From a virus: a stretch of 37,177 bases of DNA. The notes under the pieces are model-generated. The model was not told where the DNA came from. It did not search any database and was given only the letters and a program-made list of their open reading frames with translations. The stretch is from positions 1 through 37,177 of the IMG/VR virus record IMGVR_UViG_3300033064_001011; one strand, written 5' to 3'. The position numbers were made by a program, and so were the translations under genes. Below, piece after piece: positions 1,287 to 24,327 of the stretch; the first letter of the stretch is position 1, and the number at the start of each line of letters is the position of its first letter.

Positions 1287-1808
1287 ATGAACGCAGAAGA
1301 AATCGCAACAATCATAAGCCTGCATAGTAAATGGCTGAAAAACGAATCCGATGGCAAGCGTGCCGACCTGTACGGTGCCAACCTGCGAAGTGCCAACCTG
1401 TACGGTGCCAACCTGCGAAGTGCCGACCTGTACGGTGCCAACCTGTACGGTGCCGACCTGCGAAGTGCCAACCTGTACGGTGCCAACCTGTACGGTGCCG
1501 ACCTGCATGCGTTTCAGATATGCCCAGAAGAGGGGGGTTTTATTGGCTGGAAAAAACTGCTAAACGGTATCATATGCAAACTATTGATTCCATCTGATGC
1601 AAAAAGAACCTCGTCGCTTATCGGTCGCAAGTGCCGCGCTGAGTTCGTAAAAGTTCTTGATGGCGAGGGCGTCGATGGTCACACAGGAAAGCTAAGATAT
1701 TCCCCCGGCGAGATCGTGAGGCCCGATTCATATGACGATGATATACGTGTGGAGTGCACGCATGGAATCCACTTCTTTATCACTCGTGACGAAGCCGAGA
1801 AATGGTAA
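1287..1808 (+). CDS. Pentapeptide-repeat protein with DUF5758-like C-terminus
   Basis: A 173-residue protein. Residues 1-24 form a short helical lead. Residues about 25-71 are ten pentapeptide repeats of the A(D/N)LYG / A(D/N)LRS type, predicted to fold as a square beta-helix. The C-terminal half ([24 protein letters not shown] ... [17 protein letters not shown], given in parts) resembles DUF5758, a domain often found after such repeats in phages and bacteria. The start is set by AGGAAAGG at 1272-1279. Some pentapeptide proteins mimic DNA and inhibit gyrase, but nothing here proves that role. The repeat tract is unusually uniform at DNA level, suggesting recent expansion. Confidence 0.8.
1361..1505 (+). 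repeat. 15-base tandem repeat array coding for pentapeptides
   Basis: Near-identical units of the form TGCCAACCTGTACGG / TGCCAACCTGCGAAG repeat about ten times. Because 15 is a multiple of three, all frames stay open across the array on both strands. Only the frame of the pentapeptide protein has flanking sequence that looks coding. Confidence 0.9.
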
Positions 1809-3542: not shown

Positions 3543-4187
3543 ATGTCACAAGTACAAGGAAACATGGGCGGTCAGTTCGACGCCAACAAGGTCGCACCGA
3601 AGAAAGCGTTCGAGCCGATCCCGACATCGTGGCAACCCGCCATGATGATCAAATCAGAGATCGTTGCGGTGGACGGGAAAAAAGGCAAGGGCTCCGGAGC
3701 CAAGCTCACTTGGCAGATCACTGACGGCCCGCACAAGGGTCGCCAGGTATATGATTTCGTGAACCTGAAGAACACGAACCCGAACACTCAGGCGATGGGC
3801 GATGCTCAGACCTCCGCGATATGCCACGCCACAGGGTTCATGATGCCGCAGGATACCAGCCAGTGGCATAACCTCCCGTGCTATATCCGCGTGAAGCCGA
3901 AGCCCGCGAAAGACGGATACGATGCCAGCAACAGCGTCGGCGACTACAGACCCCTGAGCGATCCTCCGAAACAACTCGGAGCACCGGCAGCGGTATCTGC
4001 AGCCGCTCCGGCTCCCGCTCCGGCTCCCGCACCACAGGCGGCGCCCGCCGCAGCACCTCAACCCGCACCGGCTCCGGCACCGGTCGCGGCACCGGCCGCG
4101 GCGCCTGTAGCACCCGCTACGCCTACTCCCGAGCCCGCACCGCCGGCGACCGATGCTGACGCGGCTACGCCGACGTGGATGCAGTAG
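3543..4187 (+). CDS. DUF669 single-strand DNA-binding-like protein
   Basis: A 214-residue protein. Residues about 1-125 match the DUF669 family (WQPAMMIKSEIVAV, LTWQITDGPHKGRQVYD, NLKNTNPNTQAMGDAQ). This family is found beside phage recombinases and thought to bind single-stranded DNA with an OB-type fold. Residues about 140-205 are an Ala/Pro-rich linker, and the end carries the acidic DADAATPTWMQ, reminiscent of the partner-recruiting tip of SSB proteins. AGGAG at 3530-3534 sets the start. With the preceding Sak4-like ATPase it probably forms a recombination pair. Confidence 0.8.
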   Translation: MSQVQGNMGGQFDANKVAPKKAFEPIPTSWQPAMMIKSEIVAVDGKKGKGSGAKLTWQITDGPHKGRQVYDFVNLKNTNPNTQAMGDAQTSAICHATGFMMPQDTSQWHNLPCYIRVKPKPAKDGYDASNSVGDYRPLSDPPKQLGAPAAVSAAAPAPAPAPAPQAAPAAAPQPAPAPAPVAAPAAAPVAPATPTPEPAPPATDADAATPTWMQ

Positions 4188-4661: not shown

Positions 4662-4974
4662 GGGCGTGAAATGGTTTCGACCGGACGAATGACGGTCACG
4701 ACTACACCGACTGGAATGGCAAGGCAGGCCAGTATAAAAGCCCTCCGAATTTGTAATTGCTAACACGCAACTACTGAAGGCTGCATAGCAGCTTTCCCCC
4801 AGCCTTCGACTCCGATGGGAGATGCTGGGGCAACATCGGACAGTTTCTCGTTTCAGGAAAACGAGTGGTGGAGGTTGCCGGGCTGTAAGGTAAACCGCCA
4901 TGACCTACGGCGGTAGCGGTGTGATGTCTGATTGAAAGCGTGCCGGGACTCGGGTTCGACTCCCGGCACGTCCA
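4662..4974 (+). ncRNA. ssrA: Transfer-messenger RNA (tmRNA)
   Basis: tmRNA rescues stalled ribosomes by acting first as an alanyl-tRNA and then as a short message for a degradation tag. The 5' end GGGCGTG (4662-4668) pairs with CACGTCC (4967-4973) as a seven-base acceptor with one G-T pair, followed by discriminator A4974. The T-arm is TCGGG-TTCGACT-CCCGG. The 5' D-like region ATGGTTTCGACCGG is typical. The resume codon GCT at 4759, preceded by TTGTAATT, opens a tag frame encoding ANTQLLKAA and ending with TAG at 4786-4788; the terminal Ala-Ala is the usual protease signal. CCA is not encoded. The length of about 313 bases without CCA is normal. It is a complete one-piece tmRNA, unusual but not unknown in phages. 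Confidence 0.93.
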
Positions 4975-4998
4975 TTATATTACAGCTGATACTGAGAC

Positions 4999-6186
4999 AT
5001 GACACATATGGGCAATCTAACCGAACACATCCAGGCTGACAGCAGAACCGTGCGAGCGATCTACGAAAGCCACAAGACCCGTGGAGTATCCGCAGCCCGG
5101 CAAGAGTGCATGGATGCATCAAGTATCGGAACGGAGTGCTCCCGGGCTCTGTGGTATACCTTTCGCCACTGCGATCGAAGTGCGGTGACCGGGTTGGAAT
5201 ATGCATCTCGGAAGGCGGGCGGATTGGCCGTGTCGCGACTATCGCTGGATCTCACGGCGATTGGCTGCGAGGTGCACGACGAGAACCCTGAGACAGGGCA
5301 CCCGTTCACGTGCTCGGCTGTCGCCGGCCACTTCGGCGGGCAGATGGATGGATGTTGCAGGGGTATCCCAGAAGCTCCTATGGCGTGGCACGCAATCAAG
5401 TACGCCTCTCACGACGCCAAGGCGTTCAAGAAGCTGGCCCGCGATGGCGTTCTCAAGACGGACCCCGAGGGGTATGCCGAGTGCATGGTTCATATGCATT
5501 TCTTCAAGATGAAGCGTGCGTTGTACCTGGCCGTCAACCGGAAAACCGGCGAGCTGTACTCCGAGCGAATCAGGTACGACAAGAAACAAGCACTCGCACT
5601 GAACGCCAGAGCCGAGATCATCGTATCGGCGACGGTCCCGCCAGCAAAACTATCCGACGAGCGAGGCTCGTGGCAATGCCGATCGTGCTCGTTCAAGATG
5701 CTCTGCCACGGATCGGAACCGCCGATCGCTGCTGTATCGTGTGTCGTCGGCTGTCGGAACTGCGTGCACTCTACGCCCGAGATGGATATGACGACTGGCC
5801 GGTGGAGTTGTGCGAAGTACAGTATCACACTGAGCCGCGAGCAGCAGGATACCGCGTGCACCGATCACCTGTTCATACCCGACTTGATTAATTTCGCAGA
5901 ACCGATCGGAGCCGAGTACGATCCTGTCAACGGCGATTGGACCGAGTACAAGAACCACGCTGACGGTGCGACCTGGCGGCAAGGCAGGAACACTGCCGAG
6001 GGCCACTACACGAGCCAGGAGTTAACGCTCCTCCCAGGCCCGCTGGTAGCCGCCGGAGAGATCGAACTATTAATGAACGCTCTGGCCGCTGAGTTCATTC
6101 GGGTACGGCCGCACGAGGACGATCCGGATTGGAAGGCACACGACGCCAGGCTCGACGAGTTTAACAGGAGAAATCCCGGATTATGA
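4999..6186 (+). CDS. Cas4/RecB-like PD-(D/E)XK nuclease-fold protein
   Basis: A 395-residue protein of the phage exonuclease group related to Cas4/AddB. The N-terminal SIGTECSRALWY supplies Cys47, and CRSC...LC supplies Cys227, Cys230 and Cys236, a four-Cys set typical of an Fe-S cluster clasp. GGQMDG gives the metal-binding Asp117. Where relatives, from memory, carry an E-x-K motif before the AKxFK segment, this protein reads HAIKYASHDAKAFK, so the catalytic Glu/Lys pair appears to be missing. A second Cys-containing region (residues about 250-290, CRNCVHSTPEMD) is also known in this family. It overlaps the helicase gene by four bases (ATGA) and probably works with it in end processing or recombination. 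Confidence 0.75.
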   Translation: MTHMGNLTEHIQADSRTVRAIYESHKTRGVSAARQECMDASSIGTECSRALWYTFRHCDRSAVTGLEYASRKAGGLAVSRLSLDLTAIGCEVHDENPETGHPFTCSAVAGHFGGQMDGCCRGIPEAPMAWHAIKYASHDAKAFKKLARDGVLKTDPEGYAECMVHMHFFKMKRALYLAVNRKTGELYSERIRYDKKQALALNARAEIIVSATVPPAKLSDERGSWQCRSCSFKMLCHGSEPPIAAVSCVVGCRNCVHSTPEMDMTTGRWSCAKYSITLSREQQDTACTDHLFIPDLINFAEPIGAEYDPVNGDWTEYKNHADGATWRQGRNTAEGHYTSQELTLLPGPLVAAGEIELLMNALAAEFIRVRPHEDDPDWKAHDARLDEFNRRNPGL

Positions 6187-8157: not shown

Positions 8158-9525
8158 ATGAACAATCGACAATACAGGTCATTCATTAAAAAGAAATCCC
8201 AGGCTAATACCATGGATGGATTCAAGCCGATCCACATGCCGGATTTTCTATTCCCGTTCCAGGCCGATCTCGTGGAGTGGGCGATACGCAAGGGTCGCGG
8301 TGGGATCTTCGCTGACTGCGGGTTGGGCAAGACCCCGATGCAATTGGTGTGGGCTGAGAACGTGGTTCGCAAGACCAATAAACCCGTACTCATCCTGTCG
8401 CCGCTGGCGGTATCCCCCCAGACCGTGCAAGAGGGTGAGAAGTTCGGGATACAAGTAACCAGGTCGTCGGACGGTAAGCACAAGGGCGGGATCGTGATAA
8501 CCAATTACGAACGGCTCCATCATTTCGATCCCAACCAGTTCGCCGGCGTGGTGTGCGATGAATCATCGGTCGTCAAGCACGCCAAGGCGACGAGGCGACA
8601 AGAGATAACCGCGTTCACGCGTAAGCGTCAGTATCGGCTCTTGTGCACGGCGACAGCGGCGCCGAACGATTTCATAGAACTCGGCACATCCTCGGAGGCC
8701 CTCGGGTATCTCGGCAATCAGGATATGATAACGAAGTTCTTTAAACAGGACACAAGCAAACAATACAACGTAGCCTGGGGGCGGCTGAAGTACAGGTTCA
8801 GGGGTCACGCTGAGACACCGTTCTGGCAGTGGGTTTGCTCATGGGCTCGGGCTTGTCGCAAGCCATCGGATATGGGGTACAGTGATGATGGTTTCAAACT
8901 CCCGCCCCTGATCGAAACAGAACACAAGATCGAATCCGGAGCGGTCCGAGATGGATTCTTGTTCACTATGCCCGCTACGGATCTCAACGAACAGCGAGCC
9001 GAGCGAAGATCGACTATCCAAGATCGATGTCAAGCTGTCGCTGATCACGTATCAAAGATCAAGGGGCCGACAGTCTCATGGTGTCACCTTAACGACGAGG
9101 GCGACTTGCTGGAGAAACTTATTCCCGATTCGATCCAGGTCAAGGGTACGATGTCGATCGACGCCAAAGAAGAGGCCCTGATCGCGTTCCAGAATAAGAA
9201 GATCAAACGACTGATCATCAAGCCTAAGATCGGGTGTTTCGGTTTGAACTGGCAGCATTGCAGCAACGTGACGACATTCGTGTCGCACAGTTATGAACAG
9301 TACTACCAATCAGTTCGCAGGTGCTATCGGTTCGGCCAGAAGAAAAAGGTCAAGGTTGACATATTCTCAACCGAGGGAGAGATCAGAGTGCTCGAAAACC
9401 TAAAGCGGAAATCCGCCCAGGTCGCCGCCATGTTCGAGTCGCTCGTGCAGCAAATGAACGACGCGAACAGTGTACAACGAGACTATGAATTCAACAAGAA
9501 AACGAAAGGTGTATCATGGCTGTAA
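8158..9525 (+). CDS. SNF2-like SF2 DNA helicase
   Basis: A 455-residue helicase or translocase of the phage SNF2/DEAD group. Motif I is ADCGLGKTP (Lys58), the Walker B box reads CDESS instead of DEAH, motif III is TATAAPND, and motif VI is QSVRRCYRFGQKKKV, which is characteristic of SNF2-like enzymes. The frame extends upstream from a GTG at 8101, but GAAAGGCGAGAG directly before ATG 8158 makes that the start. It overlaps the methyltransferase gene by ten bases. The SNF2-helicase/methylase pairing recurs in phage genomes, but its exact role (replication or protection of phage DNA) is not settled. Confidence 0.88.
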   Translation: MNNRQYRSFIKKKSQANTMDGFKPIHMPDFLFPFQADLVEWAIRKGRGGIFADCGLGKTPMQLVWAENVVRKTNKPVLILSPLAVSPQTVQEGEKFGIQVTRSSDGKHKGGIVITNYERLHHFDPNQFAGVVCDESSVVKHAKATRRQEITAFTRKRQYRLLCTATAAPNDFIELGTSSEALGYLGNQDMITKFFKQDTSKQYNVAWGRLKYRFRGHAETPFWQWVCSWARACRKPSDMGYSDDGFKLPPLIETEHKIESGAVRDGFLFTMPATDLNEQRAERRSTIQDRCQAVADHVSKIKGPTVSWCHLNDEGDLLEKLIPDSIQVKGTMSIDAKEEALIAFQNKKIKRLIIKPKIGCFGLNWQHCSNVTTFVSHSYEQYYQSVRRCYRFGQKKKVKVDIFSTEGEIRVLENLKRKSAQVAAMFESLVQQMNDANSVQRDYEFNKKTKGVSWL

Positions 9526-10511
9526 TGGATCAAACGATAACCGACGATTATGCATTGTACAACGGCGACTCGTGCGAGGTGCTGCCGACGATCCCCGACG
9601 AATCGATAGGGCTGGCCATCTACTCCCCGCCGTTCGCAACCGCATCGGGCGGAGCACTGTACACATACTCGTCGTCGCCCCGGGACCTGTCGAACGCCTC
9701 GACCTACAAAGAGTTCTTCGATCATTACTCGGTGATCGTCGCGGAGATAGCCAGAGCACTGAAGCCCGGCCGGATCTCGGCGGTTCACTGCACGGACATC
9801 CCGAAGGCTGGAGCGAACATCTCGGGGCACACCGATTTTCCCGGCGACATCATACGACTGCACGAGGAACTCGGGTTCGATTACCTTCCGAGGATATGCA
9901 TCTGGAAAGAACCGTTCGGCGTACGACTACGGACGATGGCCAAGGCTCTAACTCACAAGACGATCGTGGACGATGCGACACTGGCCAACGTAGCTTGTGC
10001 CGATTACCTGATTCCGTTCCGCAAGCGTGGTGAGAACCCCGAGCCGGTTATTCATGAGAAGGGATTCACTCATTACGCCGGCGAGCGAGAGGTTCCCGGC
10101 GATCTCCTGGAGTACAAGGGGTTCAAGGGCGAACAGATCAAGAACAAATACTCCCAGTGGGTATGGCGTCAGTACGCCTCGTGCTTCTGGGATGACATAC
10201 GGCTCGGCAACGTGTGCCGGTACAAAGAGGGCCGCGATGACAAAGACGAGAGACACGTTCACCCGCTGCAACTCGACGTTATCGATCGAGCCTGTCAGAT
10301 GTGGACTAACCCCGGCGATGCTGTGTTGACTCCGTTCATGGGCGTGGGCTCCGAAGTGTTCGGGGCTGTGTCGAACGGCCGCAAGGGTATCGGTATCGAA
10401 CTGAAGCCGAGCTATTATCGCCAGGCCGTCAAGAACTGTGAGAAGGCGGAAACGCGATATCAGGACATGGCAGAGAAAGCCGCTGGACTCTTTGACGATA
10501 AAACAGAATGA
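9516..10511 (+). CDS. Beta-class N4/N6 DNA methyltransferase
   Basis: A 331-residue S-adenosylmethionine-dependent DNA methyltransferase. The catalytic motif is IYSPPF (residues 35-40), near the N-terminus. The SAM-binding motif TPFMGVGSEVFGA lies near residue 271, followed by GIGIEL. This order (catalytic motif first, FxGxG later) is the beta class. SPPF is more common among N4-cytosine enzymes, so cytosine-N4 is slightly favoured over adenine-N6. No restriction partner is adjacent, so it is an orphan enzyme, plausibly guarding phage DNA against host restriction. AAAGGTG precedes the start. Confidence 0.88.
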   Translation: MAVMDQTITDDYALYNGDSCEVLPTIPDESIGLAIYSPPFATASGGALYTYSSSPRDLSNASTYKEFFDHYSVIVAEIARALKPGRISAVHCTDIPKAGANISGHTDFPGDIIRLHEELGFDYLPRICIWKEPFGVRLRTMAKALTHKTIVDDATLANVACADYLIPFRKRGENPEPVIHEKGFTHYAGEREVPGDLLEYKGFKGEQIKNKYSQWVWRQYASCFWDDIRLGNVCRYKEGRDDKDERHVHPLQLDVIDRACQMWTNPGDAVLTPFMGVGSEVFGAVSNGRKGIGIELKPSYYRQAVKNCEKAETRYQDMAEKAAGLFDDKTE

Positions 10512-18157: not shown

Positions 18158-18847
18158 ATGATATACGGATCTGTATGCTCCGGCATCGAAGCCGCAAGCG
18201 AAGCCTGGAGTACTCTCGGCTGGCGCCCTGCGTGGTTCTCCGAGATCGACAAATTCCCTTGCGAGATCCTGAAGGCTCATCATCCCGACGTGCCGAATCT
18301 AGGGGATATGTCCGCTCGTGACTTCGCGGCTCGAGCCAAGGCGATCGCTGAGATAGATGTATTCGTTGGCGGCACGCCGTGCCAGGCATTCAGCGTTGCC
18401 GGCAATCGCGAATCACTGGCCGACGAGCGGGGCAATCTTTCACTGACTTATACGGAGCTATGCCATGAACTCGATCCCCGGTGGGCTGTTTGGGAAAATG
18501 TCCCAGGAGTCCTTAATACCAAAGACAATGCTTTCGGTTGCTTCCTCGCTGGATTGGTGGGAGACACGCGACCCGTTGAATCCTGGCTGGACGGCGGAAG
18601 GTTCCCTGTCGCGGGTATGGTTATTGGACCCTGCCGCTCCGCAGCATGGCGGGTACTCGACGCTCAATACTTCGGAGTGGCTCAACGTCGGCGGCGTGTG
18701 TTCGTCGTTAGCGGACGTACTTCAGATCGGACCAATCCCGCGGCAGTACTTTTTGAGCCCGAAAGCGTGTGCGGGAATCCTCCGAAGATGATGGAATGCA
18801 ATACGGTATTGATCGACGGGCACGCGGGGGCGAATCCGATTGGCTAA
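18158..18847 (+). CDS. C5 cytosine DNA methyltransferase, short form
   Basis: A 229-residue Dcm-type enzyme that would methylate cytosine at carbon 5. Motif I is SVCSGIEAASEAW, motif IV GGTPCQAFSV with the catalytic Cys, motif VI WENVPGV, and motif VIII QRRRRVFVV. After LFEPESVCGNPPKM the protein ends; the target-recognition remainder and motifs IX-X (a GNS/VAP-like segment) are absent. Full-length family members usually exceed 300 residues. The stop overlaps the terminase start. It may be a truncated remnant, or an enzyme completed by a gene elsewhere. No such fragment was found in this window. Confidence 0.85.
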   Translation: MIYGSVCSGIEAASEAWSTLGWRPAWFSEIDKFPCEILKAHHPDVPNLGDMSARDFAARAKAIAEIDVFVGGTPCQAFSVAGNRESLADERGNLSLTYTELCHELDPRWAVWENVPGVLNTKDNAFGCFLAGLVGDTRPVESWLDGGRFPVAGMVIGPCRSAAWRVLDAQYFGVAQRRRRVFVVSGRTSDRTNPAAVLFEPESVCGNPPKMMECNTVLIDGHAGANPIG

Positions 18848-24252: not shown

Positions 24253-24327
24253 CGCAGGGTAGAGCAGTCTGGTCAGCTCGTTGGGCTCATACCCCGAAGG
24301 TCGAGGGTTCAAATCCCTCCCCTGCAA
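24253..24327 (+). tRNA. Initiator tRNA-fMet (CAT)
   Basis: The cloverleaf has bacterial initiator hallmarks. C1 and A72 do not pair (24253, 24326), while acceptor pairs 2-7 (GCAGGG/CCCTGC) are perfect. The anticodon stem ends with three G-C pairs (G29-G31/C39-C41). The D-stem has A11-T24 instead of pyrimidine-purine. The anticodon loop is CTCATAC. The T-arm is GAGGG-TTCAAAT-CCCTC and the discriminator is A73. CCA is not encoded. C1xA72 blocks deacylation and EF-Tu use, and the G-C pairs direct the tRNA to the ribosomal P site. It lies at the head of the head/tail operon, and the first gene starts two bases after it. Confidence 0.93.

Follow-up and report, generated by a model that had tools for sequence, protein, structure and literature searches.

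The window, which is the whole stretch of 37,177 bases analysed here, is an IMG/VR viral record of a tailed phage whose contig is possibly incomplete. The contig encodes Sak4-like and single-strand DNA-binding (SSB) proteins, a Cas4-type exonuclease, helicases, methyltransferases, a primase, and terminase, portal, capsid, decoration and tail proteins. Between the SSB and Cas4 exonuclease genes lies a one-piece, ssrA-like tmRNA gene, preceded by a tRNA-Asn-like gene that ends 16 nt upstream of it (Table 1). The tmRNA gene is phage-borne: it is flanked on the same contig by the terminase, portal, capsid, tail, SSB and Cas4 exonuclease genes. A gene for SmpB was looked for and not found on the contig, possibly an incomplete one, so the phage would rely on host SmpB. 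The tmRNA region has no DNA match in 50,697 phage records, its tag pattern gave no match in viral contigs, and no relative of the Cas4 exonuclease was confirmed in viral contigs.

Three further loci of the window are recorded here. A tRNA gene with anticodon CAU (24253-24327, plus strand), located between the regulator and portal genes, shows a C1.A72 mismatch and a GGG/CCC anticodon stem, which are features of the initiator tRNA-fMet. A gene at 1287-1808 (plus strand) encodes a pentapeptide-repeat protein with a DUF5758 domain, with repeats in the DNA that leave long reading frames open on either strand. DNA methyltransferases of two types are encoded at 9516-10511 and 18158-18847 (plus strand): one matches phage DNA methyltransferase families and the other is a short C5 cytosine methylase.

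Table 1. Features of the tmRNA locus, with positions in the window and the evidence for each.
Feature	Position	Strand	Evidence or detail
SSB gene, upstream neighbour	3543-4187	+	phrog_6015
tRNA-Asn-like gene, 26-nt anticodon loop, no usable anticodon	4554-4645	+	Rfam RF00005, 43.3 bits; ARAGORN '???'; comparison with planctomycete tRNA-Asn
tmRNA gene, one-piece, ssrA-like, 313 nt	4662-4974	+	ARAGORN; Rfam RF00023, 65.3 bits, E 2e-23
Acceptor stem, 5' strand GGGCGTG	4662-4668	+	pairs with 4967-4973 (CACGTCC); G3 pairs with U at 4971
PK1	4710-4742	+	S1 4710-4714/4729-4733 (5 bp), S2 4718-4720/4740-4742 (3 bp, weak); helix list, pair check
Tag frame GCT AAC ACG CAA CTA CTG AAG GCT GCA TAG, ANTQLLKAA*	4759-4788	+	ARAGORN, sequence
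PK2	4797-4840	+	S1 4797-4803/4824-4830, S2 4811-4817/4834-4840, each 7 Watson-Crick bp; shuffle test
Hairpin CTCGTTT/AAACGAG at the PK3 position	4847-4865	+	helix list
PK4 candidate	4866-4911	+	S1 4866-4871/4895-4900, S2 4882-4887/4906-4911 (6+6 bp); shuffle test
T-arm TCGGG TTCGACT CCCGG	4950-4966	+	Rfam, pair check
Acceptor stem, 3' strand CACGTCC, and discriminator A	4967-4974	+	CCA not encoded, next bases TTATAT
Cas4-domain exonuclease gene, downstream neighbour	4999-6186	+	phrog_1990, E 1e-66

Structure of the tmRNA gene and the adjoining tRNA-like gene

A sequence-only reading of this DNA had proposed a complete tmRNA at 4662-4974, to be checked with ARAGORN and the Rfam tmRNA model, and both programs place a tmRNA there. 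ARAGORN returns identical coordinates on the plus strand with the tag ANTQLLKAA*, and RF00023 matches 4662-4977 over model positions 1-374, its 65.3 bits (E 2e-23) lying above the gathering cut-off of 47 and below the scores of planctomycete tmRNAs. The gene is complete at both ends, and the tmRNA strand folds with an MFE z-score of -3.9, a stability equalled by none of 100 shuffles. The permuted two-piece tmRNA model (RF04321), with a threshold of 47 bits, scored no more than 21.9 and 15.9 and was rejected, and an antisense match to PtaRNA1 (4936-5005, minus strand) was below its own threshold and was read as chance. A scan with the sigma-70 consensus, which may not suit the host, showed no promoter, and the terminator scan gave nothing.

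The acceptor stem, the T-arm, the resume codon and the stop-ended tag frame with an Ala-Ala end, all named in that reading, are present. The acceptor stem carries the G3-U70 pair, a known alanine identity element, and its pairs 4 and 6 differ in the alignment from those of the tmRNA of a Phycisphaerae MAG (L027), with both partners changed and the pairing kept. GTAATT stands before the resume codon GCU and places a U at -5 and an A at -4, the same as in E. coli. The pseudoknots, whose lack would have spoken against the gene, are borne out in part: a knot as strong as PK2 appears in 0 of 1000 dinucleotide shuffles of the region, whereas PK4 (equalled in 130 of 1000 shuffles) and PK1, through its S2, are within chance level on their own, and PK3 is reduced to a hairpin. 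PK1 and PK4 are putative assignments by homology and position, their own statistics aside. All 75 pairs of the model are standard. Because that model was adjusted to a single sequence, the present one, its pair count is no proof in itself, and the weight lies on the Rfam score and PK2. The locus holds a complete phage-borne tmRNA with a predicted function in ribosome rescue, and the earlier view of it as likely functional is upheld as probable.

The body of the upstream tRNA-like gene resembles planctomycete tRNA-Asn, with the start UC..CGGUAGCUCA, the stem GCGGC and a 3' UAACCG. Its anticodon loop, CCCAAGUAGCGAUAGCGAAAAGAUAA, has 26 nt instead of seven and contains the direct repeat TAGCGA TAGCGA. 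This gene and the tmRNA are probably in the same transcript. The tRNA-like gene could be the decayed remnant of a tRNA, a decoy, or an artefact of assembly.

Host and distribution

In one scan of a genome collection, tags of the type ANTQ[FL]xxAA were found in Acidobacteria (e.g., ANTQLALAA) and in the Phycisphaerae MAG L027 (ANTQLRMAA), and the tags in the class of the latter include ANTQLRMAA, ANSQLRMAA and GNYQLRMAA. Relatives of the terminase are present (E <= 1e-20) in 43 of 343 genomes of the phylum of L027, Planctomycetota, the best with 38-42% identity over nearly the full length, and in none of 347 genomes of Acidobacteriota, the phylum of the Acidobacteria MAG L013. Acidobacteria, candidate hosts by their similar tags, were rejected on this count, and a planctomycete host is probable, not certain, since two phyla were compared and viral contigs often carry this terminase family. 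Many of the relative regions share the order Sak4, SSB, helicase, primase, terminase, portal and capsid, and some regions with a terminase relative are on megabase contigs, so the relatives include Planctomycetota prophages.

ARAGORN found no tmRNA in the 40 related prophage regions that were fetched. Eleven of these contain both the SSB and helicase genes, usually close, with no tmRNA between them, and the 10 lysogen genomes checked all have their own full-length tmRNA elsewhere. The terminase relatives of viral origin also gave none (0 of 80), and the Rfam tmRNA cut-off was reached by 0 of 40 whole related viral records, records which in both cases may be fragments. Since it is absent from the relatives, the tmRNA is an addition in this lineage and accessory, and so would be dispensable for the phage group.

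The addition might be a passenger, a host ssrA copy without a function of its own that was carried off when a prophage integrated at ssrA was excised imprecisely. Integration at tmRNA genes is common, and pieces of ssrA are found in prophages (PMC9004378, PMC12656738); the group, with its relatives on megabase contigs, includes prophages. However, the gene is complete, lies inside the replication genes and away from the genome end, and is accompanied by no integrase among the proteins scanned. A recent capture should also be nearly identical to the host gene, whereas the BLAST alignments with host tmRNAs are confined to some 30-45 nt at the 3' end and, for the best subjects, a further 25-35 nt or so at the 5' end. 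This distance argues against recent capture from the host, and a passenger origin is regarded as quite unlikely.

Predicted trans-translation and alternative roles

The preferred reading, held at a probability of about 0.85, is that the tmRNA, intact and one-piece, is accessory cargo of a tailed phage with a probable planctomycete host, and that it would act by ordinary trans-translation. The evidence covers the gene, its structural elements, its context and its distribution; the steps that follow, with host factors, are predicted. The tmRNA would be transcribed within the replication-gene operon, its 5' end would be cut by RNase P, and the host CCA-adding enzyme would supply the CCA. Host AlaRS would charge it with alanine through the G3-U70 pair, and SmpB and EF-Tu of the host would bring it to ribosomes halted on broken mRNA. 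Translation would restart at GCU, (A)ANTQLLKAA would be added, and the ribosome would stop at UAG and be freed; the tagged fragment would be degraded, perhaps less efficiently than fragments tagged by the host. The phage would likely gain by having more free ribosomes available in the course of infection. PMC12656738 cites lambda-immP22 as a phage known to need tmRNA, and upkeep of translation, recycling of host proteins and sensing of stalled ribosomes are roles suggested for phage tmRNAs (PMC9004378, PMC7162821).

The tag has a lysine at position -3, which is unusual. Planctomycete and acidobacterial genomes gave 36 distinct tags, and none has lysine there, the residues seen being L, M, F, Y and Q. 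Among the matches listed for IMG/VR, a set of tags called by ARAGORN alone in which a few look spurious, it is found in one of 82 other distinct tags (ADSYYQLKAA), and V, I and other ends are also seen. ADSYYQLKAA belongs to the tmRNA at 8458-8810 (plus strand) of the IMG/VR contig L134, a gene whose T-arm and acceptor 3' end closely resemble those described here; the contig shows no detected similarity to proteins of the present phage. In six other viral tmRNAs (L128, L131, L138, L140, L154 and L193) the tags are long, about 20-30 residues, and end in VAA, e.g., ANAQIEANMNKVFSLLREEVAVAA; they are near-identical in more than one contig and would be atypical degrons.

The rarity of lysine at -3 is consistent with a different emphasis, in which the tmRNA rescues ribosomes but LKAA works poorly as a degron, letting tagged proteins survive or outcompeting the tagging by the host. 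In E. coli, ClpXP has a modestly higher KM when the antepenultimate Leu of the tag is mutated, and the two final Ala also contribute (PMC7652416). The modest size of this effect, its measurement in E. coli when planctomycete ClpX may differ in specificity, and the terminal Ala-Ala kept here, which provides the main ClpX contacts, all weigh on the other side. LKAA may be a weaker degron; the full proposal, with persisting products or outcompeted host tagging, is unlikely.

Equally doubtful is the hypothesis of a counter-defence, raised in the sequence-only reading and compatible with the findings, in which the tmRNA undoes the stalling caused by mRNA-cleaving toxins of the host. The non-stop mRNAs that such toxins produce are, as generally known, substrates of tmRNA rescue; no defence or toxin link was found at this locus, and PADLOC, run on ten neighbouring and other proteins, reports essentially methyltransferases. 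The upstream tRNA-like gene has a changed anticodon loop, and such changes in phage tRNAs have been connected with evasion of anticodon nucleases (PMC10264068). The tRNAs in question, however, are assumed to remain able to decode, unlike the one here, whose 26-nt loop also abolishes decoding. Still broader, and very improbable, is a phage RNA kit against translation-blocking defences formed by the tmRNA and the odd tRNA-Asn-like RNA, in which ribosomes are freed, the LKAA tag spares the products a rapid proteolysis and the tRNA is a decoy for anticodon nucleases.

This case adds a phage from a planctomycete-associated group to those phages that have a ribosome-rescue RNA of their own. The relatives devoid of the tmRNA provide a natural comparison of phages with and without it, and the tag, with its unusual lysine, could serve as a test case of a degron.

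Comparison with known tmRNAs

The gene shares with bacterial one-piece tmRNAs (RF00023), above all those of Planctomycetota, the tRNA-like domain, the G3-U70 pair, the layout of PK2 and of the putative PK1 and PK4, the resume codon and a short tag of the ANTQ...AA type that ends in AA and a stop. It differs in length (313 nt; the planctomycete genes seen have roughly 350-380), in the hairpin at PK3, in the acceptor stem GGGCGTG and in the tag end, which is KAA here and LAA or MAA there.

Phage-borne tmRNA is an uncommon but known phage cargo. The sequence-only view that phages seldom have one is fair, as it was found in 402 of 18,146 phage genomes (2.3%; PMC9004378), yet this was already known. 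A pattern scan of IMG/VR gave at least 120 loci, and ARAGORN calls a tmRNA in 92 of the 120 among the matches listed. Phage tmRNAs are established in cluster C1 mycobacteriophages and in huge phages (PMC7162821 for the latter). With the tmRNAs of these phages, of Melnitz and the pelagimyophages, and of Bradyrhizobium elkanii phages, the present one has in common that it is complete, belongs to a tailed phage and adjoins a tRNA-like gene. It differs from the marine phage tmRNAs, which are two-piece, in being one-piece, and from the known tmRNA phages in that it comes from a 37-kb contig of an uncultured, planctomycete-associated group.
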